Assembly: GCA_004347685.1 (NCBI GenBank)
Contig: SLTJ01000051.1
Span: 1-41,301 of the forward strand
Direction of reading: 5' to 3'
Length of the DNA stretch: 41,301 nucleotides
Origin: Clostridia bacterium
Lineage (GTDB): Bacteria > Bacillota > DSM-521 > Neomoorellales > SLTJ01
Of the stretch, positions 19,400 through 30,824 are shown in pieces. The notes beneath the pieces are model-generated. The model saw only the letters and a program-made list of their open reading frames with translations, made no database searches and was not told the DNA's origin. Positions within the stretch are counted from its first letter, which is position 1. Each line of letters begins with the position of its first letter. A program made the translations under genes and the position numbers.

Positions 19400-20183
19400 C
19401 AGCCACGCCTATGCTAGCCGCCTGCGGTCCTGGCACCCGGCGGAAAAGGCCGGCCTGGCCCTGGCCACCATGTTCATAGCTCTGGCCGCCGGCTCCTCCC
19501 TCACCGAGGTGACCATTGCCGTCCTCATGCTGGTCATGACCGTGGGCCTGGCGGGCATCCCCCCGGGCTTTTACCTGCGCCTGCTAGCCCTGCCGGCTGT
19601 CTTCGTGCTGGTGGGGGCGGCAAGTGCCGGCCTTTCTGTGACCGGACCGGGCCCGGGGGCTGGTGCAGATTTCCTCGTGGCCGTCTCCCTGGGAAACATC
19701 ACCACCGGCTTTACCGCCGCCGGCCTGTCCCTGGCCACGGGTCTGCTTCTGCGCTCCCTGGCCGCGGTCACCTGCCTTTACTTCCTGGCCCTGACCACCC
19801 CGATGGTAGATGTGATCTGGCTACTGCGGCGCCTGCGGGTGCCGGCTCTGCTAACCGAACTGCTGGAACTCACCTACCGCTACATTTTCGTCCTGGCCGA
19901 CCTGGCCTCCCAGGTGCGTACGGCCCAGTCCTGCCGCCAGGGGTATGCTTCCTGGAGCAATTCCTGCCGCTCCCTGGGAGGGCTTATCAACGCCGTCTTC
20001 CGCAAGGCGGGCTGGTATTCCCGGCAGTTGGCCGTGGCCCTGGCCGCGCGCGGCTACCAGGGGCAACTGGCGGTCATGGAGGCCGAGCACGGCCGCTGCC
20101 CGACGCGGGCCGCCTGGCTGGCCGGCCTGGAGGCCGGCCTCCTGGTCTTGGCCTGGCTGGACAGAGGTCACTACCTTGGCTGA
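19386..20183 (+). CDS. cbiQ: Energy-coupling factor transmembrane protein CbiQ
   Basis: The 265-residue T-component of the cobalt ECF transporter, with several membrane helices. The RRLRVPALLTELLELTYRYIFVL segment and the ARGY motif (LAARGYQG) couple it to the ATPase. ATG 19386 is supported by GGAGAGCGGGG and overlaps the end of cbiN; the longer frame from 19326 lies in cbiN. It overlaps cbiO by eight bases, showing translational coupling. Confidence 0.92.
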   Translation: MVAVDSHAYASRLRSWHPAEKAGLALATMFIALAAGSSLTEVTIAVLMLVMTVGLAGIPPGFYLRLLALPAVFVLVGAASAGLSVTGPGPGAGADFLVAVSLGNITTGFTAAGLSLATGLLLRSLAAVTCLYFLALTTPMVDVIWLLRRLRVPALLTELLELTYRYIFVLADLASQVRTAQSCRQGYASWSNSCRSLGGLINAVFRKAGWYSRQLAVALAARGYQGQLAVMEAEHGRCPTRAAWLAGLEAGLLVLAWLDRGHYLG

Positions 20184-21018
20184 AACCGTGCTCCTTGAAG
20201 CCAGGGAAATTGAGTTCAGCTACCCCGACGGCACCCCGGCCCTAGGTGGGGTCTCAGCCGGCATCATCCAAGGCAGCCGGGTGGCTGTCCTGGGTCCCAA
20301 CGGCGCCGGCAAGACCACCTTTTTCCTCCACCTCAACGGCACCCTGCGGCCACGGCGGGGGGAGGTGCGGCTGGCCGGCGAGAGGATAAGGTACGACCGG
20401 GCCTATCTCCGCGAGCTGCGCCGCACCGTGGGCATCGTCTTCCAGGACCCGGATACGCAGTTATTTTCCGCCAATGTGGCCCAGGACGTTTCCTTCGGGC
20501 CGGTCAACATGGGCCTGCCGCCGGCCGAAGTCCGGGAGCAGGTGCGGCAGGCCATGGCGGCCACTGGCGTTGCCCACCTGCAGGACAGGCCTACCCATTC
20601 CCTGAGTTACGGCGAGAAAAAGCGCGTGGCCCTGGCCGGGGTCCTGGCCATGCGTCCCCGGGTGCTGATCTGCGACGAGCCCCTGGCCTTCCTGGACCCG
20701 CAGGGCCAAGAGGAGCTGATAGAGTTGCTGGAGGCCGAAAGCCGGCGGGGGACAACGGTAGTAATCGCCACCCACGACGTGAACCTGGCCTACGCCTGGG
20801 CCGACCAGGTGCTGGTGATGGCCGCCGGGAAAGTCATCGGCACCGGCCGCCCGCAGGAGGTATTCCAGACGGCCGGGATCATGCAGCAGGCCGGCCTGCC
20901 AACCCCCTGGATCCTGGAGGTCTACCGGGAACTGGAACGGCAGGGGTGGGCGGCCGGCGGCAGCCCGCCGCGCCGCAAAGAAGAACTGCTCGCCCTGATC
21001 CGGCAGGCAGGCTGCTAA
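20176..21018 (+). CDS. cbiO: Cobalt ECF transporter ATPase CbiO
   Basis: A 280-residue ABC ATPase. Walker A G40-PNGAGKTT48, Q-loop FQDPDTQLFS, signature LSYGEKKRVALAG, Walker B RVLICDEPLAFLD and H-switch ATHDVNLAY. FQDPDTQLFSA is characteristic of the cobalt/nickel subgroup. TTG 20176 (AGAGGT upstream) begins inside the cbiQ end; the frame upstream to 19945 is a shadow of cbiQ. The convergent aprA-like gene ends 12 bases after it. Confidence 0.93.
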   Translation: MAETVLLEAREIEFSYPDGTPALGGVSAGIIQGSRVAVLGPNGAGKTTFFLHLNGTLRPRRGEVRLAGERIRYDRAYLRELRRTVGIVFQDPDTQLFSANVAQDVSFGPVNMGLPPAEVREQVRQAMAATGVAHLQDRPTHSLSYGEKKRVALAGVLAMRPRVLICDEPLAFLDPQGQEELIELLEAESRRGTTVVIATHDVNLAYAWADQVLVMAAGKVIGTGRPQEVFQTAGIMQQAGLPTPWILEVYRELERQGWAAGGSPPRRKEELLALIRQAGC

Positions 21019-21029
21019 CCACGGCCGGA

Positions 21030-22940
21030 TTACCGCACAGGGTACTCCTTCAGGTTGAAGGTATCGGTGTGCCGGGCGTAGCTGGAGGCGATGAACTTCA
21101 GCCAACGCTCGTCGTCGCGGTGTGGGTAATCTATCCGCTCGTGATAGGCCGGCCACCTGGTTTCCCGGCGGTAGCGAAGGTGTTCCACCAGGGCTGAGGC
21201 CACCAACACCAGGTCCTGCAACTGGTGCGCCAGCATGAGCTCATGCAGGTCAGCGGCCGACAGGTCCTGCGCCCGGTGGCGCAGCGCGGCCAGCTTCTCC
21301 CGCGCCACCAGCAGCCGCCCTTCAGAGAGGCGATATCCTTGAGAGGCCCCGCCGGCGTAATCCTCCATGACCGCCTGCAGGGCTTCCTGGAACTCGAGTA
21401 CCGCCAGCCCTTTCCCACCAGCCTGACGCAGGGGCCGGATAGCCGTAGTCAGGGCCGCCTGCACCTCGGCTTCCCCGCTGTCTCCCTCGACCCCGGGACT
21501 GCCCCCCGGCCGGGCGCCGGAACGCGACCCGAGATCAGGACCCGGCGACCGGCCGGTCGTGCCCGGACCGGGACCAAGGGACTCCCTGGGGGTAGGCGCG
21601 GACCACTGGGGCGGGGAACCGGCCCCTGGAAAGCTTATCCCTCCCCCTACCCCTACCTGGTAGACCCGACGGTAGTCGAGGTAGATCCGCAGCCAGGAGA
21701 GTTCCGGCGGCAGGGTCACGGGATCCAGTTCCCGGCCGGTAATATCGGCCACCGCGCTCGCCGCCGCTATTTCCCCTTCGGCCATGCACCCGCTCACATA
21801 CTTCTTGGGCGCCCCGCCAGCCACGTCCCCGGCCGCGTACAGGCCCGGCCGGGTGGTCCGCCGACCCGTATCCACCCAGTACCCGGCCAGGCCGTGGCCC
21901 CCCACCACGGTGGGTTCGGCCCCGGTTATCTCCAGGGCCACGTCGGCTGGACCCACGCCCTTTTCCGCCCACCAGAGGACCATGGCTGGACACATGGAAA
22001 GATAGCTTTCCCTCAGCCTGGCCGCCGCGGACGTCTCCAGTTGTCGCGTGTCCAGGTAACACGGCCCCCGGCCGTTTTCCTCCTCGGCCAGGGTGGCCCG
22101 CAGGCGGGCGGCCGTGGTACGCTCGCCGGCCTGAAGGTACCTTTCTCCGCGGGCGTTCACCTGGGGAGCCCGCACCCCCAGGGCCACTGTCCCGGTCGGG
22201 GCCATGGTACCTTTAACCCGCAAGGGGATAAACCTGGCCTCCAGGCTGGTAAGCTCGGCTCCGGCCCGTAGCCCCATGGCCAGGCCGGCCCCGGCGTTAA
22301 AGGGCGGGTACCACCTCCGGCCCCGGGCCGCCCCGGAATTGGGAGGGCGGTAGAGGCCGGTGGCCCCGCCGGTGGTGCAGATTACGGCCCGGGCCCGGAT
22401 GGCGTAGAAAATCGGGCGGCGGACGCCGACGGCATAAACCCCGGTGACCCGGCCGCCCTGGATAAGGTAGTCGCGGGCAGCCACCCGGTTCAGGATTTGC
22501 ACCCCGACAGCACGGGCCCGCCGCACCATCAGGGACTTTATCCTTTCTCCCCGCACTTCCACCGCATGCCGGCCCCGGCGCACATACCGCCCGCCGCCCC
22601 CGCGTGGGAAAGGTACTCCCCAGGCTTCCAGCTTATCCGCGGCCTGGTTGAAGCCGGCCGCCATGGTCAACACCAGATCGGAACGGACCACCCCGCTGGC
22701 CTCGGCCCGGACAAACTCCAGGAAGCTCTCCGGCGTCTCCCCCGGGTGCAGGTAAGCGTTAATGGCGTTCACTCCGGCAGCCAGGCAGCCGCTGGTGTCA
22801 GCCTGGGCCTTTTCTACCACCAGCACCGAAAGCCCTGGGGCCAGCTCCCGGGCAGCGATGGCTGCGGCCAGCCCGGCCACGCCCCCACCCACGACGACTA
22901 TCTCGGCGGCTAGTTCCTTTATTTCCCAGTCCAGGCTCAC
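21030..22940 (-). CDS. Adenylylsulfate reductase alpha (AprA)-like flavoprotein
   Basis: A 636-residue FAD enzyme of the AprA/FrdA/SdhA superfamily: [16 protein letters not shown] for [15 protein letters not shown] near the flavin site, and [24 protein letters not shown]. The AprA reading rests on the last motif and on its neighbours cysC, sat and yezD; a fumarate-reductase-like role is possible. It would reduce APS to sulfite with the ferredoxin-like protein encoded at 26145. A Pro/Gly-rich linker (about residues 433-490, plus-strand 21470-21640) breaks the conserved protein. GTG 22940 overlaps the cysC stop by four bases (GTGA). Confidence 0.82.
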
Positions 22941-23482
22941 GGCGCGCTCACATACCCGAGATTATAGAGTTTATCCATGATCTTGGCCAAGCTCTCTGTA
23001 GGTGTCTCCCGATGGGTGGCTACCACGACCTCCGGGGCCAGGGGCTCCTCGTACGGGTCGGAAACCCCGGTAAACTGGCCGATCTCCCCGGCCATGGCCT
23101 TTTGGTACAGCCCCTTTACGTCCCGCGCGGCGCACACCTCCAGTGGGCAGTGGACGTAAACTTCGACAAAGTCGGGTATCTGCGCCCGCACGTGTTCCCG
23201 GGTATCCCGGTAAGGGGAAATGGCGGCGGTGATGGCCACCACGCCGTTGCGGCTAAGGAGTTTGGCCACGTAACCGATGCGCTGGATATTGGCGTCCCGG
23301 TCAGCGCGGCTGAAGCCCAGCCCCTGGCTCAGGTTCTGCCGCACCTCGTCCCCGTCGAGCACCTCCACCCGCCTGCCCTGCTGCCGCAAATTTTCCGCCA
23401 CCATCCCGGCCAGGGTAGACTTCCCCGCCCCAGAAAGACCCGTAAACCAAAGGGTAAATCCCTTCACTTCGGCCAAGGCCAT
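22937..23482 (-). CDS. cysC: Adenylylsulfate kinase
   Basis: Phosphorylates APS to PAPS. P-loop G15-LSGAGKST23, [36 protein letters not shown] and [17 protein letters not shown] are all typical. ATG 23482 is used; the frame extends to 23518, and TTG 23476 is also possible. It is coupled to the aprA-like gene by a four-base overlap. Having both CysC and an APS reductase is unusual for a purely assimilatory route; PAPS may serve sulfation, or the two routes are alternatives. Confidence 0.92.
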
Positions 23483-23555
23483 CCCTTCCTTCCCAGAATG
23501 TTTCAGGTTAACCCCCATGCCGGCCGGGCATAACCCACCTCTAACCTCCGTTTCT

Positions 23556-24311
23556 TCACGGGAGCAGCGGGAGAATCTCCCGCACGTTGAGGATAAGCAC
23601 TAACGCGCCCACCAGCAGCATCAGAATTCGCGGTTGCAGCCGGCGGCAGGCCACAGCCGCCACGGGCGCGGCGATCACCCCGCCGGCCATCAGGCCGAGA
23701 ACGAGTTCCCAATGCACGGTCCTCAATAGCAACAAGAAAGTTATTGACTGCACCAGGGTGACAAAAAACTCGGCCAGGTTTACTGAACCAATGGCCAGGC
23801 GCGGCGCGCAGCCCCGGCCCAGAAGGGTGGAGGTGACTACCGGGCCCCAGCCGCCGCCGCCGACGGCATCTAGGAATCCACCGGTAATCCCCAGGGGGGC
23901 GGCCAAGTGGCCCAGGCCGTCACGAGCTTCCTCGGCCCTGGCTGGCCGGCGGGCCCGATTAAGGATGATCAGCCCCATGATGACCAGATATACGGCGATG
24001 AAGGGGCGGATGGCCTGGCCCGGCACCGAGGCCAGAACATAGGCCCCCACGATTCCGCCGACCACGCCAGGCAGGGCCAGCCGCACCAAGAGCTTTTTGT
24101 CAACATTGCCCAGCCGCAGGTGGGACAGGCCGGAGGTCAGGGTAGTAAATACCTCGGCCACATGCACGCTGGCGCTGCTGTATGCAGGACTGATACCCAA
24201 GCTCAAAAGAAAGGTGTTGGAGATTATGCCGTAGGCCATACCCAGGGCGCCGTCAACAAGCTGCGCCGCCAGCCCCACCAGCATGGCGGAAACAAATAGA
24301 CCCAGTCCCAT
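23556..24311 (-). CDS. TSUP (TauE/SafE) family sulfur anion permease
   Basis: A 251-residue membrane protein with about eight hydrophobic segments. It has the two family repeats: [20 protein letters not shown] early and [21 protein letters not shown] in the second half. Set between sat and cysC in a sulfur operon, it probably imports sulfate or exports sulfite; direction is inference. It starts at ATG 24311, 24 bases after the sat stop. Confidence 0.9.
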
Positions 24312-24335
24312 CTTTGTCCCTCCGTAAGCGCTTTG

Positions 24336-25502
24336 TTATCCGGCCATCTCTCCAGATTCCGCCAGGCCGCGGGCCAACACCCGGGCCACCTCCGGGCGGG
24401 TGAATTCCGGCGGTGGCAGCTCTCCCCGCCGCAGCATCTCCCGGAGGCGGGTGCCGCTCAGGACGACGTGATCGGCGTCGCCGTGCGGGCAGGTCTTGGG
24501 CGAGGCCATGCCGCCGCAGCGCCGGCAGTAAAAAGTGTTCTCGAAGAAAAGTGGGGTAATGCCCAGTTCCTCCGGGTCAAACTGGCGGAAGATCTCCTGA
24601 GCCGCGTACGGCCCGTAGTAGTTCCCCACCCCGGCGTGGTCCCGGCCCACGATGAAATGGGTGCAGCCGTAATTCTTCCGCACCAGGGCATGAAATATAG
24701 CCTCCCGCGGCCCGGCGTAGCGCATGGCTGCCGGCAGGACGGCGAGAAGCACGCGGCGGCGTGGGTAATAGGCCTCCAGGAGCACCTGGTAGCTGTCCAT
24801 GCGTACCGCCGCCGGGATGTCGTCGTCCTTGGTGGCGCCCACCAGGGGGTGAAGGAGCAGCCCATCCACGATCTCCAGGGCGCACTTCTGGATGTATTCG
24901 TGGGCCCGGTGCACCGGATTGCGGGTCTGGAAACCGGCCACAGTGCGCCAGCCGCGGGCAGCCACCTCAGCTCGCGTCTCAAGTGGCGTAAGGTGAAATT
25001 CGGGAAAGTCGGCCGGGGGGCCAGCGATCATGCGGACCGGGCCGCCCAGGAGCATTTCCCCCTGGGCCAGGAGACGGGCCACGCCCGGGTGGGCCGCCTC
25101 TGTGGCCCGGTAGACTTCCCGTGCCTCCTTGAGCCGGTCGTAGCCATAGATATCTTCCACCCGCATCAGGCCGTACATCTTCCCGTCTTCCCCGGCCAAA
25201 GCCACCTCCTCACCCTCCCGCAACTCCCCGGCCAAAGCCCGGTCAACAGGCAGGGTGATGGGCAGGCTCCAGACAGTACCGTCCGCCAGCCTCATATTCT
25301 CTACCACCGATATGTAGTCGTCCCGGCGCATAAAGCCTTCCAGTGGGCTGTAGGCGCCGGTGGCCAGCAATTCCAACTCACTGAGGGCCACCCCACCCAG
25401 CACCACCTGCCGCAAGTAAGGCACCTTACCGGCAGCCTCTTTGAGTTCCTCGCCAGCCAGCACCTGCTGCACCAGCTTCCCCCCGTGGGCTTCCAAAGGC
25501 AT
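24336..25502 (-). CDS. sat: Sulfate adenylyltransferase
   Basis: A 388-residue homomeric ATP sulfurylase, activating sulfate to APS. Signatures: [15 protein letters not shown] near residue 195, [17 protein letters not shown] near 290, and a [16 protein letters not shown] zinc-type site. It starts at ATG 25502 behind AAGGAGTG. The length equals typical Sat without a C-terminal kinase. First large gene after yezD and a terminator-like hairpin. Confidence 0.95.
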
Positions 25503-25535
25503 TTGGCTATCACACTCCTTCTTAGAGAAAACGAA

Positions 25536-25568
25536 AACTGGAGGCCAACTTCTCGGCAGCCTCCAGTT
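25536..25568 (-). terminator. Terminator-like hairpin between yezD and sat
   Basis: On the minus strand a perfect 10-bp stem AACTGGAGGC / GCCTCCAGTT with a 13-base loop, then TTTTCGTTTT. Placed inside the unit, it would lower transcription into sat (attenuation or polarity) rather than end the operon. Confidence 0.7.
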
Positions 25569-25574
25569 GTCTGG

Positions 25575-25742
25575 TCAGCGCAGGCGGATCTTCTCAGTCT
25601 TGTCAATCTGTACCACCCGGGAATCCTGGATCACTATGGTCACCGTGCCGTGCCGGATCTCGGAGATGGCGCGGATGATGGCCTCCAGGACTTCGTCGGA
25701 AACGGTGGGCGGTCGGGCCAGGACCTCGTTGGTGGCCAGCAT
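25575..25742 (-). CDS. YezD family (DUF2292) small protein
   Basis: 55 residues, ATG behind CTAAGGAGGTAGG, with IIRAISEIRHGTVTIVIQDS and ending QIDKTEKIRLR. This matches the YezD family, small proteins of unknown biochemical role that repeatedly occur with sulfate assimilation genes. It is the first gene after the promoter at 25794. Confidence 0.85.
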   Translation of the reverse strand: MLATNEVLARPPTVSDEVLEAIIRAISEIRHGTVTIVIQDSRVVQIDKTEKIRLR

Positions 25743-25761
25743 GCCCCTACCTCCTTAGTTT

Positions 25762-25776
25762 TCCGATAAGATTAGT
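25762..25776 (-). promoter_or_regulatory. Shared sulfur-operon motif, copy 1
   Basis: TCCGATAAGATTAGT on the plus strand, about 18 bases downstream of the inferred transcription start of the yezD-sat unit. 13 of 15 bases equal copy 2 at 26578. A roadblock-type operator is likely; an Rrf2/CymR-type regulator would suit but is a guess. Confidence 0.6.
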
Positions 25777-25793
25777 TATATATGATGTCCATA

Positions 25794-25823
25794 ATTATAC
25801 GGGCTCTCCGCCATAGTTGTCAA
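25794..25823 (-). promoter_or_regulatory. Sigma-A promoter of yezD-sat-TSUP-cysC-aprA-like unit
   Basis: Minus strand TTGACA (25823-25818), 18-base spacer, TATAAT (25799-25794): both boxes are consensus. Confidence 0.8.
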
Positions 25824-25882
25824 GGGGTGCCGCAAAAAAACTGCATGGCCTTATGGGCCACAGGCGGCCCATGAAACTACCA

Positions 25883-25947
25883 CCTATGGCCGGCACTTTC
25901 GTGAAAACCACCCATGCCGGCCAGGCGCAACCGATCATGGAAATAGG
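25883..25947 (-). repeat. Palindromic element R2, copy 1
   Basis: Minus strand begins CCTATTTCCATGATCGGTTG and ends with CCATAGG, a near inverted repeat of the start. It matches 31215-31277 and 29146-29197. It lies in the 320-base stretch (25824-26144) between the ferredoxin gene and the sat promoter, which has no supported gene. Confidence 0.6.
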
Positions 25948-26144
25948 CTGGAGCTGTTTTCTCGTTAGAGGTCCTGCTCTCCCGGGCCGGGCCCCGAGGC
26001 CGGCCGGAAAAAACCGGCCATGATAAGGTTATGCCCGCAGCGCAATCAAGGTTTATGTAAACATACACCAGAGATGTATTGGCATACCAGTGATAGGACG
26101 CGGCCCCATCAGGTGATAAGGCGTGAGGGGGCGGCCCGGGTATC

Positions 26145-26468
26145 TCACCTGCGTTCACGGGTATGGGTGACAAAAGTTTCCTGCCGCCCGTCAGGCCATT
26201 CCAGACTCCACTCAGTAACATCGGCGCGGGATCTGGCCATGAGCCGCACGCCGGCCCCGCCGCCAAGGGTGAGCGGCAGCACCAGGGCCGCCGCCCCGTG
26301 GGGGCAGGCCTTGAGGCAAGCGGCGCAATCCCAGCACTCCCCCGGACTCCGACACCCTACCTTGCCCTCTACCCGCTGTAGCACATCGCCCGGACAAGCC
26401 CGCACGCAGGGAGGATCCTGAGCCCGTGGGCAACCGGTGCACCTCTCCCCGTCAATAACCACTCCCAT
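26145..26468 (-). CDS. 4Fe-4S ferredoxin, AprB-like
   Basis: 107 residues with two cluster motifs: C-TGC-x7-C-x3-CP early and C-WDC-x2-C-x3-CPHGA in the middle, so two 4Fe-4S clusters. A basic/acidic C-terminal tail (LEWPDG) resembles the beta subunit of APS reductase, the electron donor to AprA. It shares an upstream motif with the sat unit, which supports that pairing. ATG behind GGAGGGAGAC. Confidence 0.82.
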   Translation of the reverse strand: MGVVIDGERCTGCPRAQDPPCVRACPGDVLQRVEGKVGCRSPGECWDCAACLKACPHGAAALVLPLTLGGGAGVRLMARSRADVTEWSLEWPDGRQETFVTHTRERR

Positions 26469-26542
26469 AGTCTCCCTCCATCACCAAAACGTTTCGTTTC
26501 ATAGGACGTGGCCAGCCAATTACCATCACCTTACCTCAAAGG

Positions 26543-26562
26543 ACCCGCTTACACCCGCTTAC
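26543..26562 (-). repeat. Perfect 10-bp tandem repeat at the ferredoxin transcription start
   Basis: ACCCGCTTAC twice without a gap, covering the expected transcription start. It may be a second operator or chance. Confidence 0.5.
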
Positions 26563-26566
26563 CTCT

Positions 26567-26595
26567 AATATAACTTATCCGATTTGATTAGTCAA
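26567..26595 (-). promoter_or_regulatory. Sigma-A promoter of the ferredoxin gene
   Basis: Minus strand TTGACT (26595-26590), 17-base spacer, TATATT (26572-26567), 99 bases before the ATG. Bases 26596-26947 hold no other supported gene. Confidence 0.75.
26578..26592 (-). promoter_or_regulatory. Shared sulfur-operon motif, copy 2
   Basis: TCCGATTTGATTAGT on the plus strand, lying in the promoter spacer and overlapping the -35 box, where a repressor would compete with RNA polymerase. See copy 1 at 25762. Confidence 0.6.
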
Positions 26596-26947
26596 GAAGC
26601 TTCTTTGTGACCCGCTCATATCGCAATTACAGCCCCCACCCTGGCCATGCCCCGGCACACCAAAGCATACGGGTGATTGCGGGCCGGACACCCGCCCCGA
26701 GCCGGGCACCAACCCTGCCGCCAGGCAGTAGCCATTCCCCAACACCTTCCTGGCACCAGCAGATATTTGCCCCGGCACGAAGGACTCAGGCCGTCGGCGT
26801 AGAATTAAGGTAATAACGCTGCTCCCGGTTGTTTACTTTTCCGGGCAACGCTGAAGACGCAAGCCGGTATCTGGCTTCTCGTCTGCATCCCCGCGGTCCA
26901 GTGCGAGTGGAGGCGCATCCCCAACGCAGGCAACACGTCCTTGGCTG

Positions 26948-28504
26948 GTGCTGGTAGCTACTGCCACCGGCGCCTTTGTCAGTTCCTTAAACAACAATAT
27001 CGTCAACGTGGCTCTGCCGCAGATGGCCACTGACTACGGCGTCAACCCGGCGCAGATCCAATGGGTGGTGACGACCTACTTCCTCACCACCGCCGTCACC
27101 ATGGTGATCGTGGGCCGCCTCTCCGATATCGTCGGCCGCAAACGGATATACACCCGCGGCTGCCTGATTTTTGCCGCTGGCGCGGCCCTCGCCGGCCTGG
27201 GCCCTTCATTATGGATATGCGTGATGGCACGGGTGGTGCAAGCCATAGGGGGTTCCATGCTGGTGGCCAATGCTCTGGCCATCGTGGCGGCGGTCTATCC
27301 GCCGGAAAAACGGGGGCAGGCGGTAGGAGTCAACGGGACGCTGGTGGGGGTGGGCAGCTTTTTGGGGCCTAGTCTGGGCGGGTTGCTCACCGATACCCTG
27401 GGGTGGCACTACATATTCCTGGTAAACGTACCCTTCAGCTTTCTTCTTTTTGCCTTCAGCCTCCTTTTCATCCCGACGGACAAACCGGACGACAAGGGTA
27501 CCGAACCCTTTGACCTGGCCGGTACCGTGTTTTACGCCCTGGCCATGCTGGCCATCATGGTCGGCACCACCAACTTGGCCGAAAACTACCGCTCGGCGCC
27601 TTTCTGGCTGGGACCCCTAGTCATTGGCGCCGGCCTCTTGGCCCTTTTTATCCGCCAGGAAACAGGCCATCCCCAGCCGGTACTGGACCTGCGCCTTTTC
27701 CGCAACCTCAGGTTCTCCACCGGCCTTACCAGCGGGCTATGCGCCTTTATGGTAGCGGCCTTTTCCAACTTTTCCCTACCCTTTTACCTTGAACATACCC
27801 TGGGGCTACCCCCGGCCTCAGCCGGACTGGTCATGACCCCGTTCCCGCTGGCCATGATGGCCTTTTCCTGGGTGAGCGGTTACCTGGCCGACCGCACCGG
27901 CACAGGAAGTGGCATTACCACCCTAGGCATGGCCCTGATCACCGCCGCCATGTTCTGGCTGAGCTTCCTTACTCCCGAGACCACCCCGGAGTCAGTGATG
28001 TGGCGGCTGCTGTTGCTGGGGCTGGGCATGGGTTTCTTCAATTCCCCGAACAACAGCGAGGTCATGAACGCCACTCCCCCGGGCCAGCTTGGCCTCGGCA
28101 GCAGCCTGCTGGCCACCAGCCGCCACGTGGGGCAAATGCTCGGTACCAGCCTGGCCGCTCTCTTCCTCGGCCTGGCCCTGGACGCGAGCGCCACCCTCTC
28201 CGCCCCGGCGGGGGCAGCAATAGCCCAGGGAGTCCGCCTCAGTTACCTGGCGGGAGGCATGATCGGCGCTGCAGGTGCCCTTCTCTGCTTCTGGCGCCTG
28301 GTCACCCACCGGCGGGAAAGGGACTCCCATGCCCCCCGGGAAGAATGGCAGGGGCTGACAGCCCGCCAGCTAGCCCGACAGCGTAACTACGCAGGTCACC
28401 GCCTATCACAGCCTTTGAGCGCGGCCGCACCGTCACTTTCGCGGAGCCTGAAACCCGGCTTGCGTCTTCCGCGCCGCCCGGCCTCCGACCGGCCCAAAGG
28501 CTGA
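26948..28504 (+). CDS. MFS transporter, DHA2 (EmrB/QacA) family
   Basis: 518 residues, about 14 membrane helices. N-terminal FVSSLNNNIVNVALP, the motif A-like GRLSDIVGRKRIY and GVGSFLGPSLGGLLTD are those of drug/proton exporters. GTG 26948 is the first usual start, but PTQATRPW just before it also looks like protein, with no start codon or ribosome site in frame back to the stop at 26852-26854. The true 5' end may be damaged or use a rare start. The last 40 or so residues run through repeat R1 copy B and are probably not native. Confidence 0.85.
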   Translation: MLVATATGAFVSSLNNNIVNVALPQMATDYGVNPAQIQWVVTTYFLTTAVTMVIVGRLSDIVGRKRIYTRGCLIFAAGAALAGLGPSLWICVMARVVQAIGGSMLVANALAIVAAVYPPEKRGQAVGVNGTLVGVGSFLGPSLGGLLTDTLGWHYIFLVNVPFSFLLFAFSLLFIPTDKPDDKGTEPFDLAGTVFYALAMLAIMVGTTNLAENYRSAPFWLGPLVIGAGLLALFIRQETGHPQPVLDLRLFRNLRFSTGLTSGLCAFMVAAFSNFSLPFYLEHTLGLPPASAGLVMTPFPLAMMAFSWVSGYLADRTGTGSGITTLGMALITAAMFWLSFLTPETTPESVMWRLLLLGLGMGFFNSPNNSEVMNATPPGQLGLGSSLLATSRHVGQMLGTSLAALFLGLALDASATLSAPAGAAIAQGVRLSYLAGGMIGAAGALLCFWRLVTHRRERDSHAPREEWQGLTARQLARQRNYAGHRLSQPLSAAAPSLSRSLKPGLRLPRRPASDRPKG

Positions 28505-28505
28505 G
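28381..28505 (+). repeat. Dispersed repeat R1, copy B
   Basis: See copy A at 3814-3940. Here the repeat's open frame is fused to the end of the MFS gene, giving the tail RLSQPLSAAAPSLSRSL up to DRPKG. Confidence 0.65.
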
Positions 28506-28561
28506 TAGTTGCGTTCGGACTTAACGGCCTATCCCAGTCAATCACCTGCGCTCACGCCGGG

Positions 28562-29044
28562 TCAGGACTTTCCTTCGGCGGGCTCGTTTGCTTCGGCTGC
28601 TCCGGTGCCGGCCTTTTCAGCTTCCTCCTCATCTTCCTCCTCATCTTCTTCTTCCAGCTCAAGGTCGTCAAGCCCCAGATCCTCAAGGTCTAGGTCCATT
28701 TCGTCCAGATCGAGGAAGTCTTCCTCGTCCTCGTCGAAGAAATCCTCGTCCTCTTCGTCTTCATCATCATCATCTTCTTCGTCCCAGTCTTCCGCCCCTG
28801 GGACAATCTCCAGTTCACGCCCCTTCTCGTTCCATTCCAGCTCGATCTCCAACCACCCATGGCCCTTACGGCGACCTGCTTCTAATTCCAGGACCACCAT
28901 GTCCCCGGGCCGCACCCCCACCCTGTGCCCCGAAGCTTCCAGTGTACCCCGGCCCTCCCGCAACACCTGAGCCAACTTTTCCAGATATTCAGCCGCATTC
29001 TTCACGTCCAGGGCCGCCTCAAACTCCAGTTCTCGCTTGCCCAT
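28562..29044 (-). CDS. Amphi-Trp domain protein with long acidic tail
   Basis: 160 residues. Residues 1-85 fit the amphi-Trp domain (AEYLEKLAQVLREG, then alternating charged strands and WLEIELEWNEKG). The remainder is a very acidic, low-complexity run of Asp and Glu ending in a KAGTGAAEANEP linker. The domain's role is unknown; the tail suggests binding of a basic partner or metal. ATG 29044 is preferred (GGGGG upstream); TTG 29050 is possible. A -10 like TATAAT lies at 29085-29090 on the minus strand. Confidence 0.75.
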   Translation of the reverse strand: MGKRELEFEAALDVKNAAEYLEKLAQVLREGRGTLEASGHRVGVRPGDMVVLELEAGRRKGHGWLEIELEWNEKGRELEIVPGAEDWDEEDDDDEDEEDEDFFDEDEEDFLDLDEMDLDLEDLGLDDLELEEEDEEEDEEEAEKAGTGAAEANEPAEGKS

Positions 29045-29145
29045 AACCAAACCCCCTTTGGTCTAGCCGGCTTTTCTGCCCTCTATTATAACAAAAAAGC
29101 GGAAGAAATACCCATACTTTTTAACAAAAATAGGTTGTGCCTTCT

Positions 29146-29197
29146 ACCCATTTTCATGATGGTTGTGCTCGAGGGGCATGAGGGATTCTGTCGAGAC
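29146..29197 (+). repeat. Palindromic element R2, copy 3 (partial)
   Basis: CCATTTTCATGATGGTTGTG, then GGGCATGAGGGATT. Similar to 31215-31277 but the right end is lost. It lies in the 29045-29359 gap, which has no other supported feature besides a -10 box. Confidence 0.55.
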
Positions 29198-29359
29198 GCA
29201 GTCCGGAAAATTGCCGCCGCCCACCCGGAGCGGCCGGAACCAAACGCTGCCACGTGATTTTCGTCCCACATCGCGAAGATACCTGGACTTAAGGGCCTAG
29301 GGAGGAAGTAGACGCCACAGTGAACAGCCGCTGTAAAGGGGCTCAGAGAGGGAAGCACC

Positions 29360-29788
29360 TCACCGCCGGGTATTGATAATGGGAGGCCAGGGGCGAAGGG
29401 CGGCAGCATAAGCCTGCTGCGCCTGTCGGGAGTTGGCCAGGTTCTGCTGCTCGGCGCGCATGCCCGCCAACCCCGCTTCCAGAATGGCCGCTACCTGGCC
29501 GTTAAGCTCCAAAGCCTCCCGGAGAAGCGCGGCCGCCTGGGCCGGGATGGCACCCCCCGCCGCTACTGGCCCGGACAGGTGGTGGCCAGGATCATTCTCG
29601 CCGGCGGCCTTGGCCACGGCTGCTTCCCAGCGCCGGAACAAACGCGATAAATCTTCCCCCACAGCCGCCACGCAGGCATAATCACCGGCCTGCGCCCCGG
29701 CGTACTGTTTGCCCACCAGGGCCCGGATCTCCCGGGCCAGGGACAGCAGTTCCCCTGCTCCCCTGGATGATCCGCCTTCAGCCGGCAA
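29360..29788 (-). CDS. Hypothetical helical protein, possibly FlgN/FliT-like
   Basis: 142 residues, almost wholly helical with heptad-like spacing and no Cys. The end, GLAGMRAEQQNLANSRQAQQ-AY, recalls the C-terminal helix of flagellar export chaperones FlgN/FliT; this is weak and no flagellar genes are nearby. It lies 22 bases after the DUF1646 stop, probably in the same transcript. Confidence 0.55.
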   Translation of the reverse strand: MPAEGGSSRGAGELLSLAREIRALVGKQYAGAQAGDYACVAAVGEDLSRLFRRWEAAVAKAAGENDPGHHLSGPVAAGGAIPAQAAALLREALELNGQVAAILEAGLAGMRAEQQNLANSRQAQQAYAAALRPWPPIINTRR

Positions 29789-29810
29789 CGGGCTTTACCT
29801 CCCTTGCCCC

Positions 29811-30824
29811 CTAAATAACGAAGAGGATAACGAAATAAATGATCAGCGTTATAAACCCGATGGGCGCGCCGAGGCGGGCCCACTCACTGCTCTTGATCTT
29901 CAGCTTGCTGGCGGAAATAATGTTGGGGATGTTGCCGGGAATGAGGATGCCGCCGCTGATCAAGAGCCCCATGAGCACGGCCTTGATCTGGTCGGGGTGC
30001 ATCTTATTGCTTATTTCCGCCGCCGTCAGGGTAGCGTTATCCAGGACGGCCGAAATCATGTTTATCCAATAAAGCAACCGGGCATCCAGGCCGATCACGT
30101 ACATGTCAATCACCGGCTTGAAGCCTTCGCCCAAGAAGGTCAGGGCCATGACAAAGAGGTAAACCTTGGCCGCCCGAATGACGATGCCGGCATAAGTTTC
30201 CTTCTCCCGGTCCTCGTCCAGCGTATCCTCCGAACGCTTCGGCTTGAGGTAAAAGGCTGCAAAAAGGCCCATGGCCACCACCCCCGGGACGACATAGGGG
30301 GCCAGGGTACGGAAAAGGTACCAGAAATCCACCCCCAGCTTACTGGTGGCGATGGTGGCCAAGGGCTCGCCCACCGGGGTCAGGACCGCCCCCAGGCCGA
30401 TGGCGTAGCAGGCGATGACGTCCAGGGCGATCTCCGACTTGCGGTCAAAGCGCACGGCGCTGATGATCTCCACCAGGACGATGGAAGCCACAATGGCGGT
30501 GATGAAACTCGAGGCCAGGCCCAGCACTACCACCACTACTATAAAAAATATCGAAACCGGCATTACCTTTAAGGCGCCGTCCACCGCGCCGCGGATGTAT
30601 TTCTCCAGCAGTTTGAAGGCTATGCCGGCGGCCAGCACCGCCGCCGTGATCATAATCGGCTCCTCCAGTGCCCTTAACAGCAGATTGGTAGTCATCACCC
30701 CAGAGACCAGGGCCGCGGCAACGCCCATGACAAAAAGGAAAGGCTCCAGGTTTTCTTCGATGGGCTTAATGAGAAAGGGCAGGGCTAAGACCAGCAGGAG
30801 GATAATTGCCAGGCCAATGATCAT
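29811..30824 (-). CDS. DUF1646 family membrane permease
   Basis: 337 residues with about ten membrane helices. GLGAVLTPVGEPLATIATSKLG and ISAVLDNATLTAAEIS, plus SGGILIPGNIPNIISA, match DUF1646, a group related to ion-transporter (arsenite/Na+ antiporter-like) families. The substrate is unknown; the paired TPVGEP and PGNIPN loops resemble re-entrant transport signatures. ATG behind AAAGGGG. Bases 30825-30945 show nothing certain. Confidence 0.82.
   Translation of the reverse strand: MIIGLAIILLLVLALPFLIKPIEENLEPFLFVMGVAAALVSGVMTTNLLLRALEEPIMITAAVLAAGIAFKLLEKYIRGAVDGALKVMPVSIFFIVVVVVLGLASSFITAIVASIVLVEIISAVRFDRKSEIALDVIACYAIGLGAVLTPVGEPLATIATSKLGVDFWYLFRTLAPYVVPGVVAMGLFAAFYLKPKRSEDTLDEDREKETYAGIVIRAAKVYLFVMALTFLGEGFKPVIDMYVIGLDARLLYWINMISAVLDNATLTAAEISNKMHPDQIKAVLMGLLISGGILIPGNIPNIISASKLKIKSSEWARLGAPIGFITLIIYFVILFVI

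Follow-up and report, generated by a model that had tools for sequence, protein, structure and literature searches.

Two copies of a 15-bp element lie at the heads of sulfate-assimilation genes in the window (the whole 41,301-nucleotide stretch analysed here), and each is probably the central part of an operator read by a CymR/IscR-type repressor of the Rrf2 family that answers to cysteine and O-acetylserine. The most likely reader, judging from its sequence features, is the genome's single CymR/IscR-type Rrf2 protein, encoded on contig C10, and the operator is most likely a partly conserved extension of a known regulatory system and not a new one. The element offers an operator candidate for the poorly studied APS reductase made up of an AprA-like protein and a ferredoxin, which is present in many Clostridia. 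It also links a stray ferredoxin to the AprA-like enzyme as its likely AprB-like subunit, and it suggests that the reader is probably of an Rrf2 type that combines Fe-S ligands with a possible CysK-docking tail.

The genes concerned are all on the minus strand, and the functional reading of the 15-mer is therefore that of the minus strand. One unit starts with a gene for a small yezD-like protein (DUF2292/PF10055; 25575–25745) with a weak match to the sulfur-starvation protein OscA, and continues through sat, encoding sulfate adenylyltransferase (24336–25502), a TauE/SafE-family permease gene (23556–24311) and cysC, encoding APS kinase (22937–23518), to a gene for an AprA-like flavoprotein (21030–22940). 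The latter protein scores 676 bits against NF005331 (cut-off 557) and 289 bits against TIGR02061, below the cut-off of 642. It has a low-complexity insertion, an extra Pro/Gly/Ser-rich stretch of about 75–90 residues after approximately residue 430, which is absent from eight relatives. The ferredoxin gene (26145–26468, minus strand) encodes a 107-amino-acid, two-cluster protein that matches the AprB model TIGR02060 weakly, at 47 bits against a cut-off of 136. Its orthologue lies directly 3′ of the aprA-like gene in 8/8 relatives (G025, G023, G007, G094, G001, G037, G058 and G078), whereas in the window it is split from that gene and placed upstream of yezD-sat; because of this arrangement in the relatives, the stray ferredoxin is likely the AprB-like subunit of the AprA-like enzyme. 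The single APS-reducing pathway proposed in an earlier, sequence-only reading of the window fits with this pairing. Elsewhere in the window, at 28562–29050 on the minus strand, a gene encodes a 162-amino-acid protein whose Asp/Glu tail is very long.

The sequence-only reading had reported a 15-bp motif at 25762 and 26578, in the same orientation and with 13 of 15 bases identical, and recomputation of the coordinates and the identity reproduces all of this; on the minus strand the motif reads ACTAATC[TT/AA]ATCGGA. Copy 1 (ACTAATCTTATCGGA, 25762–25776) is in the yezD-sat 5′ leader, 3′ of the -10 hexamer TATAAT and flanked on its other side by the Shine-Dalgarno sequence of yezD. The promoter of this yezD-sat-tauE-cysC-aprA-like unit, TTGACA-18-TATAAT (25794–25823, minus strand), is of the sigma-70 type and matches at 12/12 positions. 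Copy 2 (ACTAATCAAATCGGA, 26578–26592) lies within the ferredoxin promoter, TTGACT-17-TATATT (26567–26595, minus strand; 10/12), between the -35 and -10 hexamers. Both putative operator copies thus overlap a promoter or start in a repressor position, as had been proposed. A terminator-like hairpin with a T run (25844–25862, minus strand) separates the ferredoxin gene from the sat promoter and gives the appearance of two transcription units, although it is weak, since one such hairpin was observed and 1.4 are expected in shuffled sequence.

The location of copy 1 in a transcribed leader near a Shine-Dalgarno sequence could suggest that the element works in RNA, as a riboswitch or attenuator, and not as a DNA operator. 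We regard this as extremely improbable: copy 2 lies within its promoter, upstream of the expected transcription start, and a riboswitch or other leader RNA was rejected when no Rfam family rose above its gathering score in window positions 20000–30000. Two other features of the ferredoxin promoter region are a perfect 12-bp palindrome, AAGAAGCTTCTT, at 26594–26605, which overlaps the -35 hexamer and could be a second operator, and the leader sequence AAACGAAACGTTTTGG at 26484–26499, with the palindromic core AAACGTTT, which bears a likeness to LacI-family operators.

Taken by itself, the similarity between the two copies is weak and borderline, not beyond chance. A match of 13/15 was reached in 38 of 1000 dinucleotide shuffles of the two 200-nt promoter regions, and in 73 of 500 when whole intergenic regions were shuffled; the first chance expectation for the 15-mer was unfair because the pattern had been derived from the two copies themselves. 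These counts, together with the absence of the site from the nearest relatives, are the points in favor of a chance likeness between two A+T-rich promoter stretches that has no function. The operator pair is credible because of its conservation elsewhere. We scored the sat-upstream regions of all 20 other sat-bearing genomes among 101 with the window's 15-mer, and a 14/15 match is present in both G025 and G071, which belong to one genus (0/400 shuffles each), as well as a 12/15 match in G023 (p=0.0175). The other 17 of these 20 genomes, including the nearest relatives G001 and G007, have no significant site, and a convincing one is absent from the sat promoters of G007, G058, G001, G037, G078, G085 and G042. 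The sequence ACCTATTTTCATATCGGAATTAT following the -10 hexamer in G094 was not counted, as its left half differs and it matches at 11/15 (p=0.2). Where the element is found it keeps its place, directly 3′ of the -10 hexamer, in the sat promoters of G025 and G071, the yezD promoter of G023 and the yezD-sat promoters of loci L110 and L251, and seven promoters, those of both window copies among them, agree fully at ten columns, ACTAA....AT.GGA. Three observations argue against a chance likeness: G025 independently matches at 14/15 in the same place within the promoter, G023 has its 12/15 site, and L110 has a match as well.

A further point against it comes from loci that contain AprA clusters, 80 of which were scanned on the operon strand with the box A[CG]TAA....AT.GGA[AT]. 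There are seven matches, six of them outside ORFs of at least 100 amino acids, and none for the reversed pattern. With L144 removed as a near copy of L138, 79 loci remain, in which five of the six operon-strand matches are intergenic, a number reached by none of 300 column-permuted patterns (mean 0.79, largest 4). The box pattern had been widened after an earlier profile search, and its strict form gives five matches, four outside ORFs; the opposite strand has three matches. Given this enrichment at the intergenic heads of clusters, we consider it very unlikely that the two window copies are alike by chance. The enrichment over permuted controls appears only in the intergenic, operon-strand count: a 16-mer box searched on both strands of whole loci at one mismatch gives 24 matches, not above the 8–37 of permuted patterns, and an operon-strand intergenic box is absent from 75 of the 79 loci. 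A 25-column profile search of 79 automatically called cluster heads yielded 15 passing matches, five of them on the other strand, at a loose threshold that lets in several chance-like matches, and serves as a lead only.

The genes behind these boxes are of several kinds. In L110 the box heads yezD-sat, and in L138 and L144 it heads a cluster encoding a SaoA-like ABC ATPase, sulfite reductase, O-acetylhomoserine (OAH) sulfhydrylase, CysC, the AprA-like protein and the ferredoxin. Two tandem boxes in L171 (at 1358 and 1520) lie 5′ of an SsuA-type binding protein gene in an AprA-like cluster, and the box of L177 heads a TauE-like permease-aprA pair, the permease being assigned by sequence reading, with no NCBIfam match. 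That the element also stands in front of sulfate-assimilation clusters of other Clostridia supports the proposal, made from the window, that the AprA-like protein and the ferredoxin would be co-regulated with Sat, CysC and the permease.

The window's own genome gives a different picture. The sequence-only reading had called for a genome scan and would have counted a motif missing from the upstream regions of other sulfur genes against itself; within this 3.12-Mb genome that outcome is seen, as only the two window sites are good. The pair is the sole match without mismatches, there are no places with one mismatch, and two of the three places with two mismatches are inside long ORFs. Searches with ACTAATCWWATCGGA at up to three mismatches found 75 places versus 92 for the backwards control, and with ACTAANNNNATNGGAW at up to one mismatch 14 versus 52; ten of the 12 one-mismatch places in the latter search are within ORFs of at least 80 amino acids, the other two being C8:21998 and C9:117858. 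Because the counts do not exceed the controls and the places are mostly in ORFs, a wider regulon does not emerge by this test. The regulon idea consequently holds for the local pathway and not beyond it, with no site at cysK (three loci), sulfite reductase or rrf2-nifS in this genome.

Two Rrf2 proteins in the genome score over the Pfam cut-off, one encoded on C10 and one on C8. The C10 protein (C10:30403) matches PF02082 at 167 bits; its best full-length NCBIfam match is the CymR model NF047409, at 183.6 bits (below the cut-off of 195), and it scores 135.6 bits against the IscR model TIGR02010 (below the cut-off of 207.55). Its best PDB matches are 4cic (194 bits) and CymR 2y75 (154 bits). 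The helix SEHYLEQLVS, which we take to be the CymR recognition helix, is identical in the C10 protein and Bacillus subtilis CymR (2y75). The C-terminal tail, YMYYI, is close to the YMFYI of Staphylococcus aureus CymR (3t8r) and of 3lwf, and is possibly a CysK-docking tail; a regular expression for the tail-binding loop of CysK finds PTSGNT at one of the three cysK loci of this genome. The C10 protein also has three IscR-like cysteines, C92, C101 and C107, which B. subtilis and S. aureus CymR lack in the alignments. The cysteines and the YMYYI tail occur together in 8/8 clostridial proteins of the C10 type (L031, G000:C10 1495–1947, and L202–L208), while two Rrf2 proteins from what appears to be Paenibacillus have the tail and lack the three cysteines. 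The 4cic protein, presumably IscR of Thermincola potens, has the YMYYI tail in common with the C10 protein, and at the positions of the three cysteines its crystallised chain has serines. The literature searched contained no report that this IscR controls sulfate assimilation. The C10 rrf2 gene adjoins, on the 5′ side, a NifS-type cysteine desulfurase gene (TIGR03402, 582 bits; cut-off 531). A related site, ending TAGGAATT, follows the -10 hexamer in the rrf2 promoters of G025, G037 and G078, and the genome's own rrf2 promoter has GTTACTCGGTTTTT, with the counterpart GTTACTAGGTTTTT in G058, which suggests that rrf2 may be autoregulated through a variant box.

The prediction of an Rrf2/CymR-type reader thus gains from the CymR-like helix and the tail of the C10 protein. 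The CymR operator has the consensus TAAWNCNNANWNNNTNGGAATT, of which the window sites keep the C, A, T and GGA but not the GGAATT, their ends being GGAAAA and GGATAA; some of the relatives' sites end GGAATTAT. This departure in the window sites is one of three points in favor of a true shared operator with another reader, either the RirA-like Rrf2 encoded on C8 or a protein outside the family, and a signal other than cysteine; the remaining two are the second Rrf2 over the Pfam cut-off, and the lack of the box at the other sulfur genes tested in this genome. We nevertheless consider another reader unlikely, since the helix region of the C8 protein, IPEAFFHKTVGCLSRAGL, is unlike that of CymR whereas the C10 helix is identical to it, since sulfur clusters of other genomes have the box at their heads, and since a related site occurs in rrf2 promoters of the C10 type.

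A close parallel is in Clostridium acetobutylicum. CymR is predicted to control CAC0102–0110, and the IscR and CymR motifs are described as alike (PMC3828012); CAC0102–0110, which include adenylylsulfate reductase A and a ferredoxin, show joint induction (Table 3) and carry a CymR-regulon label (PMC4845359). Both systems have predicted CymR/Rrf2 control over cysC, an aprA-like gene and a ferredoxin gene. In C. acetobutylicum, the aprA-like and ferredoxin genes are in one operon with those for CysD and CysN, whereas the window has Sat instead of CysDN and its ferredoxin gene forms a separate unit with its own putative operator. The C. acetobutylicum regulon also includes other cysteine genes in those accounts, in contrast to the present genome, where none of those tested has the site. 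A CymR-like Rrf2 gene adjoining iscS in C. perfringens is induced on cysteine limitation (PMC2940859).

Under control by the C10 protein, the repressor would, when sulfur is plentiful, sit on the leader of the yezD-sat-tauE-cysC-aprA unit and on the spacer of the ferredoxin promoter, perhaps with CysK, docked on the repressor's C-terminal YMYYI tail, keeping it on the DNA. CysK binds partners with a C-terminal isoleucine, CymR among them, and stabilises DNA binding by B. subtilis CymR (PMC4961446, PMC12895370). Repressor at copy 1 would block promoter escape or early elongation, and at copy 2 the binding of RNA polymerase. When cysteine is short, O-acetylserine would free CysK and both units would be expressed, such that the AprA-like flavoprotein and the split-off AprB-like ferredoxin would appear together with Sat; the shared operator would in this way keep the AprA-like and AprB-like subunits together. 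As a more tentative extension, one Rrf2 protein in these Clostridia might act as both CymR and IscR, its cysteines reporting Fe-S status and YMYYI reporting O-acetylserine and cysteine via CysK, so that the sat/apr box would answer to both and the ferredoxin copy would keep the two subunits matched.

Across the phylum, an extended form of the box, ACTAANNNNATNGGAATTAT, has 14 exact matches in 14 of 398 genomes. Twelve of these are outside coding sequence, a count that takes in two sites at sat, the ORF over them being sat itself read from an upstream alternative start; the backwards control has seven matches, six of them inside ORFs. The extended box precedes sat or yezD-sat in three genomes (two genera), and one gene each for an O-acetylhomoserine sulfhydrylase, a polar amino-acid ABC permease and IlvC; it also precedes genes for an alpha/beta hydrolase twice and for peptide-type binding proteins twice. 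The other matches lie before a small ORF preceding a CtaC-like gene, at one place without a gene identity, and at two places inside coding sequence. A sulfur connection is clear for four of the 14 matches. In L242 and L243 (1501–1520 in both), from two genera of one family, the extended box is 5′ of the same alpha/beta hydrolase gene, which is possibly an unrecognised member of the sulfur regulon.
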